Of a stretch of 64,000 nucleotides of DNA, positions 801 to 45,116 are shown piece after piece. The notes beneath the pieces were generated by a model. The model saw only the letters and a list, made by a program, of their open reading frames with translations, ran no database searches and was not told the origin of the DNA. Source of the DNA: a virus; the IMG/VR virus record IMGVR_UViG_3300028027_000060, positions 1 through 64,000 of that record; one strand, 5' to 3'. The position numbers and the translations under genes were made by a program. Position 1 is the stretch's first letter. Each line of letters opens with the position of its first letter.

Positions 801-871
801 AACAACAACTATAGCAACGGCAGGCGCTACATTCCGCAAGGTTGTACGGGGTTCGAGTCCCCGCGTTGTTC
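801..871 (+). ncRNA. tRNA-like element 1 (cloverleaf-like, no usable anticodon arm)
   Basis: A canonical T arm, CGGGG/CCCCG around the loop TTCGAGT (847-863), is followed by a 7-base acceptor strand CGTTGTT and the base C871. AACAAC at 801-806 pairs with GTTGTT at 865-870. Between them a D-like arm TAGC/GCTA (812-829) and a second arm TACA/TGTA with an inner CC-GCAA-GG (828-846) can form, but they compete for two bases. No 5-bp stem with a 7-base anticodon loop fits, so this is not an ordinary tRNA. It ends in C-TAAAC like the elements at 1633 and 2643, and the next start codon is 19 bases further on. A decayed tRNA gene is the alternative. Confidence 0.55.
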
Positions 872-876
872 TAAAC

Positions 877-885
877 TTATACACA
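877..885 (+). promoter_or_regulatory. Single DnaA-box-like sequence
   Basis: TTATACACA fits the relaxed DnaA-box consensus TTATnCACA. It lies just after the first tRNA-like element and before the gene at 891. One box does not make an origin, but the window also encodes a DnaA domain IV-like protein at 63372. Confidence 0.25.
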
Positions 886-890
886 ACAAT

Positions 891-1076
891 ATGAGCAACA
901 AAGATTTCATCAAAGCCCTGCGCTCTAAGCGCAAACTACTTGCATACACTAAGTTCAACAACGACATCGGCACGTATATGCCAATGGTAAAGGCTGACTT
1001 CCTTATCCTTGCCAACACAGGCCAAATCGAAACTTGGGACGCAACAATTACTGACACTTCAATTTATCTAGGATAA
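891..1076 (+). CDS. Small early protein, unknown function (61 aa)
   Basis: First gene of the early plus-strand run, starting at an ATG 19 bases after the tRNA-like element. The protein has a basic N-terminal segment (RSKRK near residue 12) and no membrane segment or metal-binding cysteines. The leader is A- and C-rich and has no Shine-Dalgarno sequence, as in most genes here. Codons favour C in third position, like the genes that follow. I do not recognise a family. Confidence 0.7.
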   Translation: MSNKDFIKALRSKRKLLAYTKFNNDIGTYMPMVKADFLILANTGQIETWDATITDTSIYLG

Positions 1077-1087
1077 CACAACACACC

Positions 1088-1369
1088 ATGGAAACTACTG
1101 AAAAATTCGCTCGCATATGCAGTGCAACAAACGAGGGCATGAACGAGGGCTTCCTATTCGAAGAGAGCCTTCAATACTTCATTGAGCAGGACGACGCCGA
1201 ACGCTACGCAATTGAGCTAGGCTACGCCGACCTCGACGAGGCATACGACGACGACGCCTACTGCTACACTGAATGGGACGCGGAAGACGAGCGCGAATGG
1301 TATGAGAAGCACGACGGCCAATGGTACGAATGCACACAGGACAGCAAAGTATTAATCAATAACAACTAA
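1088..1369 (+). CDS. Highly acidic small protein, possible DNA mimic (93 aa)
   Basis: About 27 of 93 residues are Asp or Glu against six Lys/Arg, giving a net charge near -21. The centre is dense in acidic residues spaced by aromatics (for example YTEWDAEDEREWYEK). Very acidic early phage proteins often mimic DNA and block host restriction or nucleoid proteins (ArdA- and Ocr-like proteins); that role here is inferred only from charge and position. It follows the 891 gene by 11 bases and precedes another acidic gene by 5 bases, so the three are probably co-transcribed. Confidence 0.75.
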   Translation: METTEKFARICSATNEGMNEGFLFEESLQYFIEQDDAERYAIELGYADLDEAYDDDAYCYTEWDAEDEREWYEKHDGQWYECTQDSKVLINNN

Positions 1370-1374
1370 CCCAC

Positions 1375-1638
1375 ATGCTACACAACGAGCACCTACAGAA
1401 AGCGGACGAACTATACGAAATCCGCCACGACAACAACGGCAACGTCATCCACGTCTATGTAAAGGACGGCGAGGCTATCGTATTCCCCTCACTACACGAC
1501 TTCGTGATGAGGGTATACTACGGACAGGAGGTCGAGCGCTTCTACCTAGATGAGGAAGAGCTAACCGACCTGTATAACGAGAGCGCATACGACTACTACA
1601 CGCTCAAGGCTAAACACGAGGCAATACAGAACAGCTAG
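1375..1638 (+). CDS. Small acidic early protein, unknown function (87 aa)
   Basis: An acidic, tyrosine-rich protein (for example LDEEELTDLYNESAYDYY near the C terminus) with no motif I recognise. ATG start 5 bases after the preceding gene. Its TAG stop codon, 1636-1638, lies inside the acceptor-like stem of the tRNA-like element at 1633-1679, so a terminating ribosome would cover or unfold that structure. Confidence 0.75.
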   Translation: MLHNEHLQKADELYEIRHDNNGNVIHVYVKDGEAIVFPSLHDFVMRVYYGQEVERFYLDEEELTDLYNESAYDYYTLKAKHEAIQNS

Positions 1639-1679
1639 GCATGGTGGCCATGGAGGGGTTCGCTTCCCCTCCCTAGCTC
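1633..1679 (+). ncRNA. tRNA-like element 2 (compact three-way junction)
   Basis: A 47-base fold with every stem perfect: acceptor AGCTAGG/CCTAGCT (1633-1639 with 1672-1678); a mini-arm CATGG/CCATG with loop TGG (1640-1652); and a T arm GAGGGG/CCCCTC with loop TTCGCTT (1653-1671). C1679 takes the discriminator position and TAAAC follows. Acceptor plus T arm total 13 bp, as in selenocysteine tRNAs; ordinary tRNAs have 12. D and anticodon arms are replaced by the mini-arm, so it cannot decode. It lies 35 bases before the DUF932 gene and is a close relative of the element at 2643. Confidence 0.75.
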
Positions 1680-1714
1680 TAAACATATAACATCAATTTT
1701 TTTAAACAACTTTT

Positions 1715-2638
1715 ATGAACACAAACTTCAACCTCGACAACATGTTGTCAAACATCGCCACAGGCGCTAAAACAATCGAAACCCTTCAGTCTACAGGCCT
1801 TGATTGGCAGGTAAACAAGGTACAACTCTACACACCCGACGGCACACCTGTCGACAGCGCATGGGCCAACCAACGTGCCGACAACGGGGCTATCCTAGGC
1901 GTCATGTCAGAGCAGTACGCGGTCTTCCAAAACGACGAGCTCGCTGAGCTATGCGAGGCAATCGCAGGCGAGTTTGGCTACAGCATCCACAAGGGCGGCG
2001 CTCTTAACGGCGGCAAAAAAGTGTACCTGCAATTGTCAGCAGGCAGCGTGACCGGCATCGGTGACAACAACGACAAGGTAGAAAAGTACGTGACCGCGCT
2101 CAACTCATTCGACGGCAGCAGCAGCGTTTGCTTCGGGTCCCTAGGCTACACCATTAGCTGTCAGAACACGTTCTACCGCGCAGCCCGTGACAAGGCCATG
2201 AGCCGCGTCCGCCACACCTCTAGCATGCGCGACCGAATCGAGGCAGCCAAGCACCAAATCTTGGGCATCATCAAGGCCGACGAGAGCCTGTACGACACCT
2301 TCTTCAAGATGGCCAACGCTCAGATGACGCCCGAGATTGTACGCAGCGTGGTTCAGAGCCTCACGGACGTCGACATCACCAAGACGCCGAGCAGCATCAA
2401 GGCTGACCACAGCGCCCGCAAGTTCAACATCGCAAGCGACCTGCTAGACAGCATCCGCCGCGAGACAGCGTACAAGGGCGGCTCGCTATGGGGCTTGATG
2501 AGCGGGGTTACTCACTACACCACTCACAAGGCGTCCGCTCCTAACCGCGAGAACGGCCGTATCGAGGCTAAGATGACAGGCAATGCAGGTTCAATGGACG
2601 CGCAAGCATTCGACATCCTAGCGAAAATCGTAGCCTAA
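1715..2638 (+). CDS. DUF932 family phage/plasmid protein
   Basis: A 307-residue protein matching the pattern of the DUF932 (phage/plasmid-like, TIGR03299) family: an N-terminal segment on WQVNKVQLYTPDG, a central region with QYAVFQNDELAELCEAI, and CFGSLGYTISCQNTF followed by RVRHTSSM. The family is common in phages and plasmids with recombination or early accessory genes; its biochemical role is not settled. The leader after the tRNA-like element is very AT-rich (a run of T at 1697-1703). The next tRNA-like element begins 4 bases after its stop codon, so the gene is bracketed by two of these structures. Confidence 0.85.
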   Translation: MNTNFNLDNMLSNIATGAKTIETLQSTGLDWQVNKVQLYTPDGTPVDSAWANQRADNGAILGVMSEQYAVFQNDELAELCEAIAGEFGYSIHKGGALNGGKKVYLQLSAGSVTGIGDNNDKVEKYVTALNSFDGSSSVCFGSLGYTISCQNTFYRAARDKAMSRVRHTSSMRDRIEAAKHQILGIIKADESLYDTFFKMANAQMTPEIVRSVVQSLTDVDITKTPSSIKADHSARKFNIASDLLDSIRRETAYKGGSLWGLMSGVTHYTTHKASAPNRENGRIEAKMTGNAGSMDAQAFDILAKIVA

Positions 2639-2642
2639 CGGC

Positions 2643-2689
2643 AAGCGGGCATGGTGGCCACGGAGGGGTTCGATTCCCCTCCCCGCTTC
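2643..2689 (+). ncRNA. tRNA-like element 3 (compact three-way junction)
   Basis: Same 47-base architecture as the element at 1633: acceptor AAGCGGG/CCCGCTT (2643-2649 with 2682-2688), mini-arm CATGG/CCACG with loop TGG and one mismatch (2650-2662), T arm GAGGGG/CCCCTC with loop TTCGATT (2663-2681), C2689, then TAAAC. Four of seven acceptor pairs differ from element 2, each by a compensatory double change, while the mini-arm and T arm are almost identical. The ATG of the next gene is 12 bases downstream. Confidence 0.75.
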
Positions 2690-2701
2690 TAAACAACTAA
2701 T

Positions 2702-2947
2702 ATGAACACAATGTACATCATCAAAATGACTCGCATGACATCGGGAGAGGTGACCATGCGCAAGGAAATCAGCGGCTACACCCGCGCCTACACACTATTC
2801 ACGGAGCTATGCGACGAGCGGTCTTACGACGTACAAGAAAGCCCAATGGACGGCACGTACTTCGGCGGCGGCCATGGCTACGACTTTATGATAGAGCTAT
2901 CGGTAGACGACGAGGATAGCGAAGAAACTCAATACGAACCCTTTTAA
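2702..2947 (+). CDS. Small acidic early protein, unknown function (81 aa)
   Basis: Begins at an ATG 12 bases after the third tRNA-like element. It has a basic first third and a strongly acidic C terminus (SVDDEDSEETQYEPF), with a glycine cluster (GGGHGYD near residue 57). No family recognised. If the upstream element is cut like a tRNA, this mRNA would start with TAAAC and carry a 12-base leader. Confidence 0.7.
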   Translation: MNTMYIIKMTRMTSGEVTMRKEISGYTRAYTLFTELCDERSYDVQESPMDGTYFGGGHGYDFMIELSVDDEDSEETQYEPF

Positions 2948-31283: not shown

Positions 31284-34200
31284 TACCTTACGGGGATTAA
31301 GTTGCCATACTGATCAGGGGCGTAATTTACACCATTTATCGTTATGATTGGGTTCCCGTTTGGAGAAACTTGCTGCTGCGGCTGTTGTACGGGCTGTTGT
31401 GCTGGCTGTTGAGGCGTGATGCCGCCTACCACCTTGTTGGCCGTGCCTAGTCCCCTGTTGATCGCGCTCATCTGCATGGACATCTTCTGTGCCGCGCTGA
31501 GTTTATTCCCCGCAGCGAATGCCTTAGACGCGTTGTTTGCCACGCCTGCCCCAACGAACATAGAGGCCACGTTGCCTAAGCCGTTTACCACGTCCCCGAC
31601 CTGGTCAAGTTTGCCCGTGTGCTGAGATGCGTCGTAGTTCTTGGCGTCGATCTGTCCGACCTGGTTGACGATGTTACCCACGCCGCCTACAGCCGAGGCT
31701 ATGGGTGCGGTTACTGGAATGACCTTGAGCGCCGTACCCGCGAGCTTGCCAGCAAAGTTTGCCCCAGTGTCGAACCTGTCGTTGTTGTACTGGTCCTCGT
31801 CCACTATGTCCTGCATGGACTTGATGCCAGCAACACTGCCGACGGCCCCGAGTGCGGTGTCGGCTATCCCGTAGCCCACGTCGCCAAGTGCGTTCCAGAA
31901 CCCGCCCTGCTTTGCCTTGAGCTTTGGGTTTTTGCCTGTGTACTTTATCTTGCCGCCAGCGATCTCTACGTCGATGCCGCCCTGTGCATGGCTCTTGCCC
32001 TTGAACTCCTTGATAACCTCCCACTTGCCGCCTGGCTTGAAGTCGAACGACATGCCGTCCTTGGCCTTCTTCTGGCCTGGGGGACACTTCACCTCGACCT
32101 TGTTTTCGCGGACCATCTTGTCCACGTCCTGCATGGTGACAACCTTTTCGCCAAGCGCCTTCTTCATTGCCAGCTCTGCCTCGGTAAGGCCGCCCTGCTT
32201 CTGTTGCTTCTTGGCATCGGCCAGCTTTGCCTGGGCTGCGGACAACTCCTCGAGAGACAGCGTGCCCTGGCCCGTGGCCTGCTCGCTGACAAGGTGGTCG
32301 TGTATCATCTGCTCCAAGGCGTTTACGGCGGCTATGCGCTGCTGTCCAGCCGTTGGGATCTCTGGCATCTTTGGAGGTCCTGCCTTCTTGCGCTTCTCTG
32401 GCTCCTGCTTCTGGCCCTCCTGCTTGGTCTTGTTGACCTCCTCCTGTAACGCGGCGTACTGCTTGCCGTCTGCGGTGTTTTTCCACTCAGCCTCGGTGAC
32501 CTCGTATGCCTGGTCTGGGGTCATGCCCTGTGCTATCAACTCCTTGACACGGCCCTGGCTTTCCTGCACACCCTTCTCCATCAGGTCCATCATCTCCTGC
32601 TCCTTCTGGGCGACGGTTGCCTCTGGGGTACGTGTCTTGCCCTGCTTCTTGCCCTTGGATGGCTTCTTGCCCCCCTTGGTCTCCTCTGCCGCAAGTTTGT
32701 TCTTCCAGTAGTCCACGTCGGAGTCTGCAAATCTCTTAGCGTCATCGTCGGACATACCCTCCACGTCGTAGCCGTTCTCCGCAAGGAACTCCTTGGCGGT
32801 CTTCTTGCCGTCGATGTAGTCAAACGCTGCCCGTGCCTCCTTACGTGCCCTGTCGGCCGCCTGTTGTTTTGCCGCGTCGTTAGACTTGATGCGCTCAATG
32901 TCGGACGTGGTTATGGCTGGGGCGTTGTCGATGTGGTCCTGCTCGGTCACGGCCTGTAGCACGCGCTCGCGAGGGTCCTCAGATACTACTTCTTCTTGTG
33001 CTTGAAGTACTCCACCTGCTGGAGTCGTTTCTGTGCCTGCGCCTTCGACAGGTTGGGTTGTGATAGGTTCTTGCCCGACTCCGACTTCACCTGGTACCCC
33101 TTGGATGTTTTCTTGATCATTTTTTTTACCGTTTAATATGTCGTAAATACTCTGCTCATTTGCCGCGATCTGCTCCTTAGCCTTTCCATACTCGTTGGAC
33201 TCGGCTGGGTTGTCTGCCATTGACTGGCGGTGCGCCCTGTTCTGGTTGGCTATGGACTTGATTGCGTTCCTTTGCGTCTGGTCCAACTTGGACCATAACG
33301 GGTTGCTTACAACCGATGTCAAAAAGTCGTCAGCCATCTTGGTGGCCTCGACCAGGTCTGCGGTGTTGTTGTAAGCCTGTTCCGACCCCGCCTGCTGGGC
33401 CTGTAGGTCTTCAGCGCTTGGCTTCTTCTTGTCCTCAATCTCTACCTGCCTTGGTGCGAACACGGCCTTTGCTATGCCGCTTATGTTCTCAGACATTGAC
33501 TTCCATGCACCCTTGGTCTTGTGGTCGTTTACCTGTTTCTGCAAATCGTCTAGGATAGGCTTGGTGTTGCCAAAGCCCTCAACGCTAACACGCTCCTTGG
33601 CCAACATGGTCAAGAAGTCCTTGTTGGTGCCAAGATTCCTTGCATCCTCTGGGGTCATCATCATGACCGTGCCGTCGGCATAGGTCAGAGTGAGCATGTC
33701 TGGAGACTTGCCCTGTAGGTACTCGGCGCCCGTGCGCTCGTAGTCCGACTGCTGTTGGCGATACATCTTGGACAGGATCGGGTCCTGGTCGTGCTTGTCT
33801 GCGTTCCTTCTCGCCTCGTCTGCGCGTGCCGTAAAGAATCCGTACACGTTGCGCTGTGCGTTGTTTAACTTAGCATCGTCAGCAGACTTCTTAATGGTCT
33901 CTGCATGCGTTATCTGCTCCTGCATCACCGCCGCTTCATCCTTGTCAACCTGCCCGCTGGCAAACATTGCAGACACGACAGAACGTGCGTACTTCTCATC
34001 TTTATCGAACACAAGTTTCTGTAGGTACTGCCTGCGCTGGTCCTCAAAGCCTCCCACCAACGTGGCCTTGTCTTGGAAAGCCTTGGCGTCGTCTACGGCC
34101 TGTCCCTGGCGAGACTTTGTCCTGGCACCTCCAACAAATCCTAACAGACCTATTGGGGCCACGCCTACAAGGGTCTCCTGGATGCGCTTTGCTGAGTACA

Positions 34201-43100: not shown

Positions 43101-44385
43101 CCAATGCGCTGTTTATAACCGACTGACTCAATTGGTAAGTCATCTGACCAAGGGGAACGCTGGTAGGTGCTGGACCCCAAAAAACTGTACCCGCAGAAAA
43201 CGGGAACGTAGTAATTGCATTAAAATCGGTAGCGTCGGTCTTTATAAACGACGAACCAAATGCATACGTTATATCAAAGTCTATAGCGCCAAAAGGATTC
43301 CATTTAATCTCGCTAAGCGTGTAGTCCATGCCCACATCCAATTCGATCTTGTCGTATGACTCACGAAAGTTGGCGTATACCAACTGGTTTGTAGGTAGAT
43401 ATTCCTGGCAGTCCGAAGTGATGGGCAGCCTGTCGTAGTTCTTGAGCGCGTCTATTGCGCCCTTGGTTGCCACGTTGCCGTAAAACTTTACCGTCCAGTA
43501 AAAATTATCTGGCATGCCGTCCACTGTCTTGTCAAGCTCCAAAAACACACCAAACGGGGTTATTGCCCCGCCCGTGGTCTGGTCGAACTCCTGCACCGCT
43601 AGATTGAACTTCCTTACAACCTTTGGCCCCGTGTTAAAAGAAACTGTGACGCAGTTGTCGTTGTTGAGGCCGATAAAGTTCGTGCCCGTTACAAGTTCAG
43701 ACTGGGTAGGGAGTGCCAGGTTTGAGTACATAGACCACACGCCTATTTCTCCATTCTCGTAGATCGGTTGAACGATAAACTTGAACAGCTTCTTGCGGAG
43801 CTTGTTGTCGTTGCGCGTGATGTCCGTAGTAAACTCAGAAATTGGCGGCTCTAATGGCCACTTGATGGCGTCGATCGCCTGTAGGTCTATTGACGTGTAG
43901 TATACGTCCAGGGCCTTCTGTAGGTTGATCTGGAACGGAGGGTTGAAAAGTCTCACGCCATCGGCGTCGTACATCTCTGGGTCCCAGCGGCCGTCGGTCC
44001 ACTTCAACAGGTCGTCAACCACGTTGGCGTGGTATACTGGCCAGTCTGGGCTGAAGTTAAACTGCTCGGTGGATATAACCGTCTCGTGTGTCTTGCTGTC
44101 GATGTAGTACACGCATATCGAGTCCGCGCCTACTGGGCGGTAAACGAAATAAACGATTGCACGCTTTTTAAGCCATATTGTGGCGCCCACCACCTGGTCC
44201 TGAAACTCGATGGATGGGTTGTTAATTTCTATGGTACCAAGTGAGGTCTCTACGGCAAAGCCGTTACCAGAATTGTATCCAAGGCGACAATAAGAAAAGT
44301 CGCGGTAGTCACCCTTGGGAAATCCCTGTGGGGTGTCGTCGGTGTTTATACCGCCAGTAAAACTTATGGTCTCGTTAAATTCCAT
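40075..44385 (-). CDS. Muzzle-like tail tube / stopper protein (1436 aa)
   Basis: 1436 residues starting MEFNETISFTGGINTDDTPQ, a start typical of the very long tail proteins of crAss-like phages that close the short tail (muzzle or stabilisation protein). The rest is beta-rich with many Tyr and Asn and few helices, as in beta-propeller or stacked-strand proteins. Position directly after the three ring-like proteins supports this. No enzyme motif is seen. The call is by size, start and context. Confidence 0.7.
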   Translation of the reverse strand: MEFNETISFTGGINTDDTPQGFPKGDYRDFSYCRLGYNSGNGFAVETSLGTIEINNPSIEFQDQVVGATIWLKKRAIVYFVYRPVGADSICVYYIDSKTHETVISTEQFNFSPDWPVYHANVVDDLLKWTDGRWDPEMYDADGVRLFNPPFQINLQKALDVYYTSIDLQAIDAIKWPLEPPISEFTTDITRNDNKLRKKLFKFIVQPIYENGEIGVWSMYSNLALPTQSELVTGTNFIGLNNDNCVTVSFNTGPKVVRKFNLAVQEFDQTTGGAITPFGVFLELDKTVDGMPDNFYWTVKFYGNVATKGAIDALKNYDRLPITSDCQEYLPTNQLVYANFRESYDKIELDVGMDYTLSEIKWNPFGAIDFDITYAFGSSFIKTDATDFNAITTFPFSAGTVFWGPAPTSVPLGQMTYQLSQSVINSALASGPNPMDWNIYIMQAICDNFMDQLGYAYGVAAPTGASVTYSFTAGANIDGIADPRVRTTRQTLPTPSLKVGATHQFGIVYGDRAYRDGTVLTQNTMSVFVPWFYDINRTGLSNPQNPFTVGARLTINHQPPVWADKYWIVAKPATEILSFGQYTVTSAADANGNNYNSAITLESASNNRYRMQIDNYYTSQNKGASINHQIQVGDRVRFIRQRPEGVQTDATTFEYIPYLELEVLEYNPVGGTADTARPNRQEIYVTLFNEGSIEDDFNMSNGNLFGQLIEIYTPRPATDDNNGLFVSEWKDITPALPIDNAHTEDRSHGIVYDSYTIHYAYNAEAESWYKYTWGDTSELAGTTWDYQQLNVYNTIVSQGTVNIINANYSPDQNITLLSTSLPSTGGSDSLRILLTQNQVQEYTGGSQVQPAQLNLQYGDVYIKQRNYGTGLISESAVYYYWIEDPHYSDYWLSDIHQLGRFRLEDPNAKMVDRQAVAIHSAAYVFGTEINGLSNFSLSNDNIQELNPIYGKIVRIYNSGREGKTLKCIQEKKENSIYIQYYPNEVGSDSTVRVSGKTFSSWFDYRSLYGCTNAGATAILPSGTAMYFDNNAGMFIYSSANGQIVVSEIDPETGKDYKFRAKTKELAAKYNADDSAIVSTYVNEVMGEVGFAFRFGTQYTGTAFGGFNPPSQPTEAFIILGDHTNLYGYDMVITFPESGNSYQGNVGVATYLEFYDFTLITLTGVTPDVADYQKPGTYYTTSGFEYDHVVFDYVNMRWRSTYDYNFKLFCNFGQTLVGWGTNSQLYLHNQDNSFEFHGQPFTQKVTFVSNDQPLLLKRYQDIAFVSDYPFSVTAYSEPNRSYPIGMRTTMPVAIQNNYEGYSKVYYRKNLYDPRFYSNGSTTTSSYDPPTQPVNGWIIPKDQTSNIDALITIIQVDGSIFTGKMLTVSYDDILDESLVTLDGQAPSSNGVTGFWYYSDIAMLNGEDVRANALTHTVEYVPVDSGSLLFTVGIKGVLS

Positions 44386-45116
44386 TATCCTAGATTAAAT
44401 TCTGACGCCTGTGCAAGCGCGTCGATCATCTCACTGAGGCGTGGCGCCTTAACCAGCAGGTTGGCGCTCCATTGGGCCGCCTCGTACTGCATCTGAAGTT
44501 CTTTGTATTTGCTCATGTCCCCCTGGCTTCCCCTGTGGAAACAATACTCGCTCATCAGGTACAGACGGAATGGCTCCGCGTATGCGACATCAATCATGGT
44601 GTTCTCGTTGACCTCTGATCCGTTTGAGAAGTACTCAATGATCAGCTTTCCGTCTGGGATGTTGTGGTCAAAGATGATGTTGTTGCCATCGATGCGGTAG
44701 TAGTTCTCGTTACGGCCACCGCCCATGGTGTAGTTCGGGTAGTTGTAGAAGTACCCAAAGTATCCCGTTGGAAAGAATCCGTCGGCTATAACCGAGTCAT
44801 CCTTGTCGCTCTCGCACTGGAAGAACTCCTCTGGGTAAGTAAGCGAGTTGTCTGGCGTAAGCGTCCATATACGACGGCCAGACCTTAGTCCCACCTTTGA
44901 AATGCGGATGCAGTCCGACGGCATGGTGAACACACGGGCACCAGTGTCGATGCTTGCGTTCACGGTCTTGAGGGACACGTTGCCGTCGAGCGGACTCTTC
45001 TCGCTCAAGTAGTCGATGGCTACCTGCGTCATCCACGTAAGCTCACGACCTGTAGGGTTTTTGCCCAGGCGGTATAGAGCCGATGTGGCAATGTATTTTA
45101 TGTTCTTAATTGTCAT
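44385..45116 (-). CDS. Tail ring / connector protein (243 aa)
   Basis: 243 residues, mixed alpha/beta, with a helical C-terminal segment (EPFRLYLMSEYCFHRG). It is one of three small proteins in tight order (ATGA and single-base overlaps) between the fibre-like 807-residue protein and the muzzle-like protein, the position of ring and adaptor proteins in crAss-like virions. Shares one base with the next gene. Confidence 0.65.
   Translation of the reverse strand: MTIKNIKYIATSALYRLGKNPTGRELTWMTQVAIDYLSEKSPLDGNVSLKTVNASIDTGARVFTMPSDCIRISKVGLRSGRRIWTLTPDNSLTYPEEFFQCESDKDDSVIADGFFPTGYFGYFYNYPNYTMGGGRNENYYRIDGNNIIFDHNIPDGKLIIEYFSNGSEVNENTMIDVAYAEPFRLYLMSEYCFHRGSQGDMSKYKELQMQYEAAQWSANLLVKAPRLSEMIDALAQASEFNLG

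Follow-up and report, generated by a model that had tools for sequence, protein, structure and literature searches.

Introduction

In mitochondria, tRNAs and tRNA-like t-elements lying between genes direct the cutting of polycistronic messages (PMC4919922). Bacterial RNase P also cuts phage and operon RNAs at tRNA-like structures, examples being the M3 RNA of phi80, the C4 RNA of P1/P7, the gene 32 mRNA of T4 and the his and lac operon mRNAs (PMC11143913). An acceptor stem, T stem and T loop suffice for the bacterial enzyme, which measures a distance of 12 bp from the T loop to the 5' end; G19 is a strong interference position, and the GGU motif of RNase P RNA pairs with R73-C74-C75 (PMC11143913). 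The elbow of the substrate is gripped by both RNase P and RNase Z, and the latter is blocked by CCA (PMC4919913). A further likeness is offered by mascRNA and menRNA (RF01684), tRNA-like elements at the ends of the long RNAs MALAT1 and MEN beta that are cut by RNase P and RNase Z.

Mechanisms of the kind considered here thus have precedents in mitochondria and in single RNase P substrates. What does appear to be new is the family described below, with its minimal form and its distribution across phage operons; no description of the element family was found in the open-access literature, and no Rfam family reached its gathering score in the window or at the mini-element sites checked.

Two mini elements in a phage operon

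The DNA analysed (the window) is a stretch of 64,000 nucleotides, part of a 70,061-base IMG/VR virus record. Its phage likely infects a member of the Bacteroidota, because the terminase is distantly related (~25% identity) to those of Flavobacterium, Cellulophaga and Maribacter phages and A-rich leaders precede the gene starts. The features that concern us first are the following.

1375 to 1638, plus strand: upstream ORF of 87 amino acids, without a family (ORF list, family search)
1633 to 1679, plus strand: mini tRNA-like element 1 (fold, comparison, covariation)
1636 to 1638, plus strand: stop codon TAG of the 1375 ORF, within the acceptor strand of mini element 1
1679 to 1684, plus strand: CTAAAC trailer of mini element 1, which begins the leader of the DUF932 gene (ATG 1715)
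1715 to 2638, plus strand: DUF932 protein gene (PF06067, phrog_1221), between the two mini elements (family search)
2643 to 2689, plus strand: mini tRNA-like element 2 (fold, comparison, covariation)
2689 to 2694, plus strand: CTAAAC trailer of mini element 2, which begins the leader of the 2702 ORF
2702 to 2947, plus strand: downstream ORF of 81 amino acids, without a family (ORF list, family search)

The original prediction described two 47-base copies, each with an acceptor, a TTCG-type T arm and a CTAAAC tail and each standing before a start codon, and this description was confirmed, the ATGs downstream being those at 1715 and 2702. In the first element the 7 bp acceptor AGCTAGG/CCTAGCT (1633-1639/1672-1678) is followed by a linker (1640-1652, CATGGTGGCCATG), a T stem (1653-1658/1666-1671) with its loop (1659-1665) and C1679. 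The second is built in the same order from the 7 bp acceptor AAGCGGG/CCCGCTT (2643-2649/2682-2688), a linker (2650-2662, CATGGTGGCCACG), a T stem (2663-2668/2676-2681), a loop (2669-2675) and C2689. Both T arms consist of a 6 bp stem, GAGGGG with CCCCTC, closing a 7-base loop that reads TTCGCTT or TTCGATT, after which CTAAAC follows. The two copies differ at acceptor pairs 2 to 5 and all four differences are compensatory, as had been predicted.

Folded as single sequences, the mini elements are modestly better than shuffles (z of -2.4 and -1.5). Their E-values of 1e-15 and 2e-13 in the covariance model are inflated because both window sequences belong to that model. It is covariation and recurrence, not single folds, that prove the mini elements real.

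A longer element upstream

A tRNA-like element of a longer type lies before these genes:

813 to 871, plus strand: longer-type tRNA-like element (Rfam mascRNA model; conserved in relatives; weak match to model R2 at 835-876)
871 to 876, plus strand: CTAAAC trailer of the 813 element, which begins the leader of the 891 ORF

Its start had been placed at 801, and is corrected to 813 by the 7 bp acceptor AGCAACG/CGTTGTT (813-819/864-870). Between the acceptor strands are a long linker with an extra arm and a 5 bp T arm with a TTCGAGT loop, and C and TAAAC follow. ARAGORN calls no tRNA across the window, and none in most element-rich loci. The Rfam mascRNA-menRNA model (RF01684) scores 30.7 bits (E 0.002) on 813-870 and 18.8 bits on 2644-2687, both under the gathering score of 42.5 bits. 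The element is kept in five related loci (L046, L045, L047, L054 and L005), with the extra arm variable, and is a mascRNA-like relative.

The region upstream of it, 430-812, is without convincing ORFs and is conserved as noncoding sequence in L046, L045, L047, L040, L054 and L188, with modules gained and lost among these relatives and no Rfam match. It may be a structured noncoding RNA ending in the 813 tRNA-like element.

Recurrence and carriers

A pattern search of IMG/VR for the T arm GGGGTTCGNNTCCCC with CTAAAC at a set distance gave 35 stretches, and the DUF932 protein led, through its relatives, to 12 loci. A script written to detect an acceptor strand across the linker found the same element repeatedly in unrelated contigs. 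A second pattern, ATGGTN{5,9}GGTTCGACTCC, required neither acceptor pairing nor the tail; applied to the resulting loci, the script returned at least 98 unique elements, a minority of them parts of real tRNAs, against 1 in reversed sequence. Another scan gave 60 elements against 3 in reversed sequence, and on these two comparisons an origin by chance was rejected. In all, at least 103 viral loci hold at least one element with a GG linker, with up to nine elements per operon. The first covariance model matched 34 of 36 records, which had been chosen as mostly already known to hold an element, and as many as seven full-length matches shared a strand within ~5 kb. Recurrence in related phages, together with covariation, is therefore strongly in favour of the family that the original prediction proposed.

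Cultured carriers are the Streptomyces phages Endor1, Endor2, Joe, Lannister and phiScoe45, the Gordonia phages Trine and MakoManhole, and the Mycobacterium phage LittleE. The early region of phiC31 has hairpins, and this phage was scanned along with lambda, T4, crAss001 and Flavobacterium phage elemoA; none has the element, and phiC31 was dropped as a cultured model. Among bacteria, 86 genome stretches matching the pattern held no convincing mini element; the model matches inspected in two bacterial chromosomes are real tRNAs, and a third chromosome gave two weak model matches.

Existing annotations cross the elements in Endor2 and Trine. In Endor2 (NC_054673) an annotated tRNA-Arg at 44378-44460 (L333 1879-1961) overlaps a gene and includes the mini element at 44380-44419, and is probably a false tRNA call; a tRNA-Arg is also listed in the corresponding region of phage Sitrop. 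Gordonia phage Trine has three tandem mini elements in 270 bases (L317 31979-32249), adjoining GGCAC-type repeats. They fall within the start of gene 40 as annotated (31440-32243); the gene probably begins instead at the ATG after the third element.

Structure of the family

The fold common to the family is a continuous acceptor and T-arm helix of 11-13 bp, a TTCG-type T loop and a short GG linker, in ~39-47 bases. All pair cells are formed in 11 hand-checked sequences, with two-sided changes at 12 of 13 pairs. An alignment of 118 sequences has 97.6% of its cells paired, again with two-sided changes at 12 of 13 pairs; double-changed cells number 530 against 135 in shuffles, and pairing falls to ~53% when the partner is slid by one column. 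Both alignments are biased towards the structure, and an unbiased set was therefore assembled from T arms picked without regard to the acceptor. Among the matches listed, 82 T arms outside tRNAs had been found without acceptor or tail, and in 69 of the 82 an acceptor helix of 5 bp or more is present. When the 3' strands were exchanged between elements, a mean of 9.1 matching acceptors was left, with a maximum of 19 in 200 trials. Because several sets include near-identical relatives, the number of sequences should not be taken as the number of independent events.

Of 130 elements, 128 have a helix of 11, 12 or 13 bp; the scanner accepts no helix shorter than 11 bp and goes no further than 14. 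In the 5' strand the break shifts (acceptor of 5-8, T stem of 5-7), while the total length is nearly constant, as would be imposed by an enzyme that takes its measure from the T loop.

The linker varies between 7 and 13 nt, as in CATGGTGCAAG, ATGGTCTTATG, ATGGTCGCAG and ACTGGCAGACA among others, and its conserved part is ATGGT. The proposal of a small CATGG/TGG arm within the fold was rejected: CATGG finds its full partner, CCATG, in the first copy alone, the second copy having CCACG, and the arm is missing in relatives such as those with the first two of these linkers. A peptide starting at the linker ATG was likewise rejected, since ACG, CTG or TTG often replaces the ATG and the reading frame is not conserved. 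What is retained is the GG: 125 of 130 linkers have it, and it corresponds in order and position to G18-G19 of the tRNA D loop. A TGGT pattern served to find some of the 130, though not the Streptomyces phage copies that carry ACCGGCAGACA and AGAGGCACACA. A subgroup with a very short linker (ATGGTGTA) occurs in L240 (1309-1347), L259, L237, L230, L226, L235, L282 and L218. In the first three of these a similar, GGTACGCCGATACCTCTAGCCGTCTAG-like stretch without an Rfam match lies 3' of the element, and the subgroup is possibly a separate noncoding RNA.

Downstream of the helix, 11-12 bp elements have A or G next in 69 of 83 cases and then C in 62 of 83, while 13 bp helices have C next in 42 of 45. 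The rule is R73-C74, and where a thirteenth pair occupies position 73, C74 comes next. The C that had been taken as the discriminator of the window elements makes better sense as position 74, their helices being 13 bp long. At position 75 most elements have T, G or A, so that the trailer is mostly not CCA, as RNase Z requires. CTAAAC was given up as a universal tail because the earliest patterns had been built around it; in the unbiased set R73-C74 comes with trailers that differ between lineages. Real tRNAs without an encoded CCA (in genome contigs, mostly of Bacteroidota) have the same A73-C74 trailer, with C74 in 29 of 41. This weakens R73-C74 as a proof of RNase P action, since the tail is a host pre-tRNA-like end that does not single out this enzyme.

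Position between genes

In a set of 36 elements, an ORF starts 10-55 nt downstream of 28, and 29 have an upstream stop at -10 to +25 nt; stop and start are both nearby in 23 of the 36, against 3% of random places on the same strand. The eight elements of Endor1, an annotated phage of Streptomyces coelicolor, are all found in intergenic gaps on the coding strand, although gene-free 40-base stretches make up 6.8% of the genome (p ~4e-10 for 8/8); the stop is 7-14 nt before the element in six of the eight, and the next start 34-53 nt after it. The elements are arranged on one strand in all 35 loci that hold two or more.

In Endor1 (L316 44168-48128) and Joe (L318) a second small hairpin, for example GGGCAACTCTGCCC, seems to lie directly 3' of many elements; if these elements are cut, the downstream message would begin with this hairpin.

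A proposed role in operon cutting

The comparisons show the structure of the elements, selection on that structure, their conserved letters and their position. Judged from these features of the sequence, the elements are probably minimal tRNA mimics that act as intergenic cut sites for host RNase P and RNase Z, to which we give a probability of roughly 60%. The linker GG would dock on the T loop and produce a tRNA-like elbow, whereupon the helix may be cut by host RNase P at its 5' end, by host RNase Z after position 73, or by both. A polycistronic, probably early, transcript would then split into shorter messages with defined ends, and the phage would gain gene-by-gene control of mRNA stability and translation through enzymes that every host keeps.

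The anatomy is that expected of such substrates. As for RNase P, ~12 bp separate the T loop from the predicted cut site, the T loop is present and R73-C74 follows, and the near-fixed helix of 11-13 bp matches the distance that the enzyme measures; as for RNase Z, no CCA follows the discriminator; as in tRNA punctuation, the elements are on the coding strand at the junctions of genes that share a transcript. An acceptor stem stacked on a T arm with a TTC T loop is shared with tRNA genes, but the D arm and an anticodon arm with a decodable anticodon are absent, the linker of 7-13 nt leaving no room for them. The claim that the family is built as an RNase P and RNase Z substrate punctuating one operon is thus supported by anatomy and placement. 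Counting against cutting are helices of 11 and 13 bp, which are one off the canonical 12.

The position of the upstream stop bears on which enzyme might cut. The original prediction noted that the stop codon of the 1375 gene lies inside an acceptor stem, which is correct (1636-1638), and suggested that termination could be linked to folding, which does not hold generally. An RNase P cut that leaves 12 bp would lie within or ahead of the upstream stop in 30 of the 94 elements with a stop nearby, and these divide by base composition into 26 of 50 in loci below 50% G+C and 4 of 44 above. The overlap is therefore no general coupling device; it is a property of about half of the low-GC group and not of the family. 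It counts against a 5' cut by RNase P in that group, and in low-GC phages, including that of the window, either RNase Z alone cuts, or cutting competes with translation, or non-stop messages are tolerated.

Were RNase Z alone to cut throughout, on the 3' side, the upstream message would keep its stop and end in a protective tRNA-like structure, perhaps with CCA added, while the downstream message would start at or next to CTAAAC. This would resolve the low-GC overlap, and it suits the low-GC trailer, CTAAA/CTCA, which is the most uniform part of that set and lacks the CCA that blocks RNase Z (PMC4919913). However, G at +1 (74 of 126 elements) and the fixed 5' boundary favour a 5' cut as well, and in high-GC phages the stop codon sits 7-14 nt clear of the helix, so we regard action by RNase Z alone as unlikely.

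The element might instead stay uncut, as a stable leader or trailer structure that protects the mRNA, spaces translation or binds EF-Tu, a tRNA modification enzyme or the CCA-adding enzyme. A stable G+C-rich helix does stand at every junction, and T loops are recognised by many proteins. Plain stability, though, has no need of a T loop, a GG, an R73-C74 trailer or a fixed helix length, and the element should in any event encounter the host's RNase P and RNase Z, which makes an uncut structure quite unlikely. Nor is it at all probable that early tRNA mimics serve as decoys that titrate host enzymes or tRNA-attacking defence toxins: the tRNA shape and the several copies per operon, near a probably early region, would suit them, but a decoy need not occupy each stop-start gene junction, and one that has no anticodon arm is no decoy for anticodon nucleases.

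Two further explanations are hardly credible. Copies within one phage can be alike, and their T-arm letters match tRNA genes, as decayed tRNA genes or a mobile repeat would have it, yet stem letters vary freely while pairing, which decay would not keep, is kept, the strand bias is strict, and the bacterial matches checked are real tRNAs. Intrinsic terminators, or DNA sites for a protein or recombinase, would also be inverted repeats between genes, but CTAAAC, ACT, ACG and similar follow the helix in place of a T-rich run, and the stem letters are free, the T loop fixed and one strand only is used.

Comparison with known systems

Returning to cutting by host RNase P and RNase Z, a wider statement can be made, whose chances we consider evenly balanced: that a widespread, undescribed family of minimal tRNAs (acceptor, T arm and GG linker, ~39-47 bases) lets unrelated phages of Actinobacteria and probably Bacteroidota hire both enzymes to cut gene junctions, with the acceptor stop of low-GC phages making cutting and upstream translation compete. 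If it is true, phages of different phyla have a bacterial counterpart of mitochondrial tRNA punctuation, phage gene control comes to include RNase P and RNase Z, and the element is among the smallest natural tRNA mimics. It would explain some misannotated phage tRNAs, supply natural portable cut sites for operon splitting, and offer ~100 natural substrates for asking what RNase P must see.

Each of the described systems differs from the phage elements in its own way. The mascRNA and menRNA belong to eukaryotic long noncoding RNAs and have four-arm-like folds, whereas the mini elements are without D and anticodon arms and lie between phage protein genes. Mitochondrial punctuation relies mostly on genuine tRNAs, or in plant organelles on t-elements; the phage elements, for which cutting is inferred, are minimal, are not tRNAs, and are repeated along one operon in DNA phages of bacteria. 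The phage and operon RNAs cut by bacterial RNase P are isolated cases, while the elements form a family across many phages with a conserved T loop, GG linker and R73-C74 trailer. Finally, the RNase P model hairpins AT1 and pMini3bp are laboratory constructs, whereas the phage elements are natural and carry in addition a GG-bearing linker.
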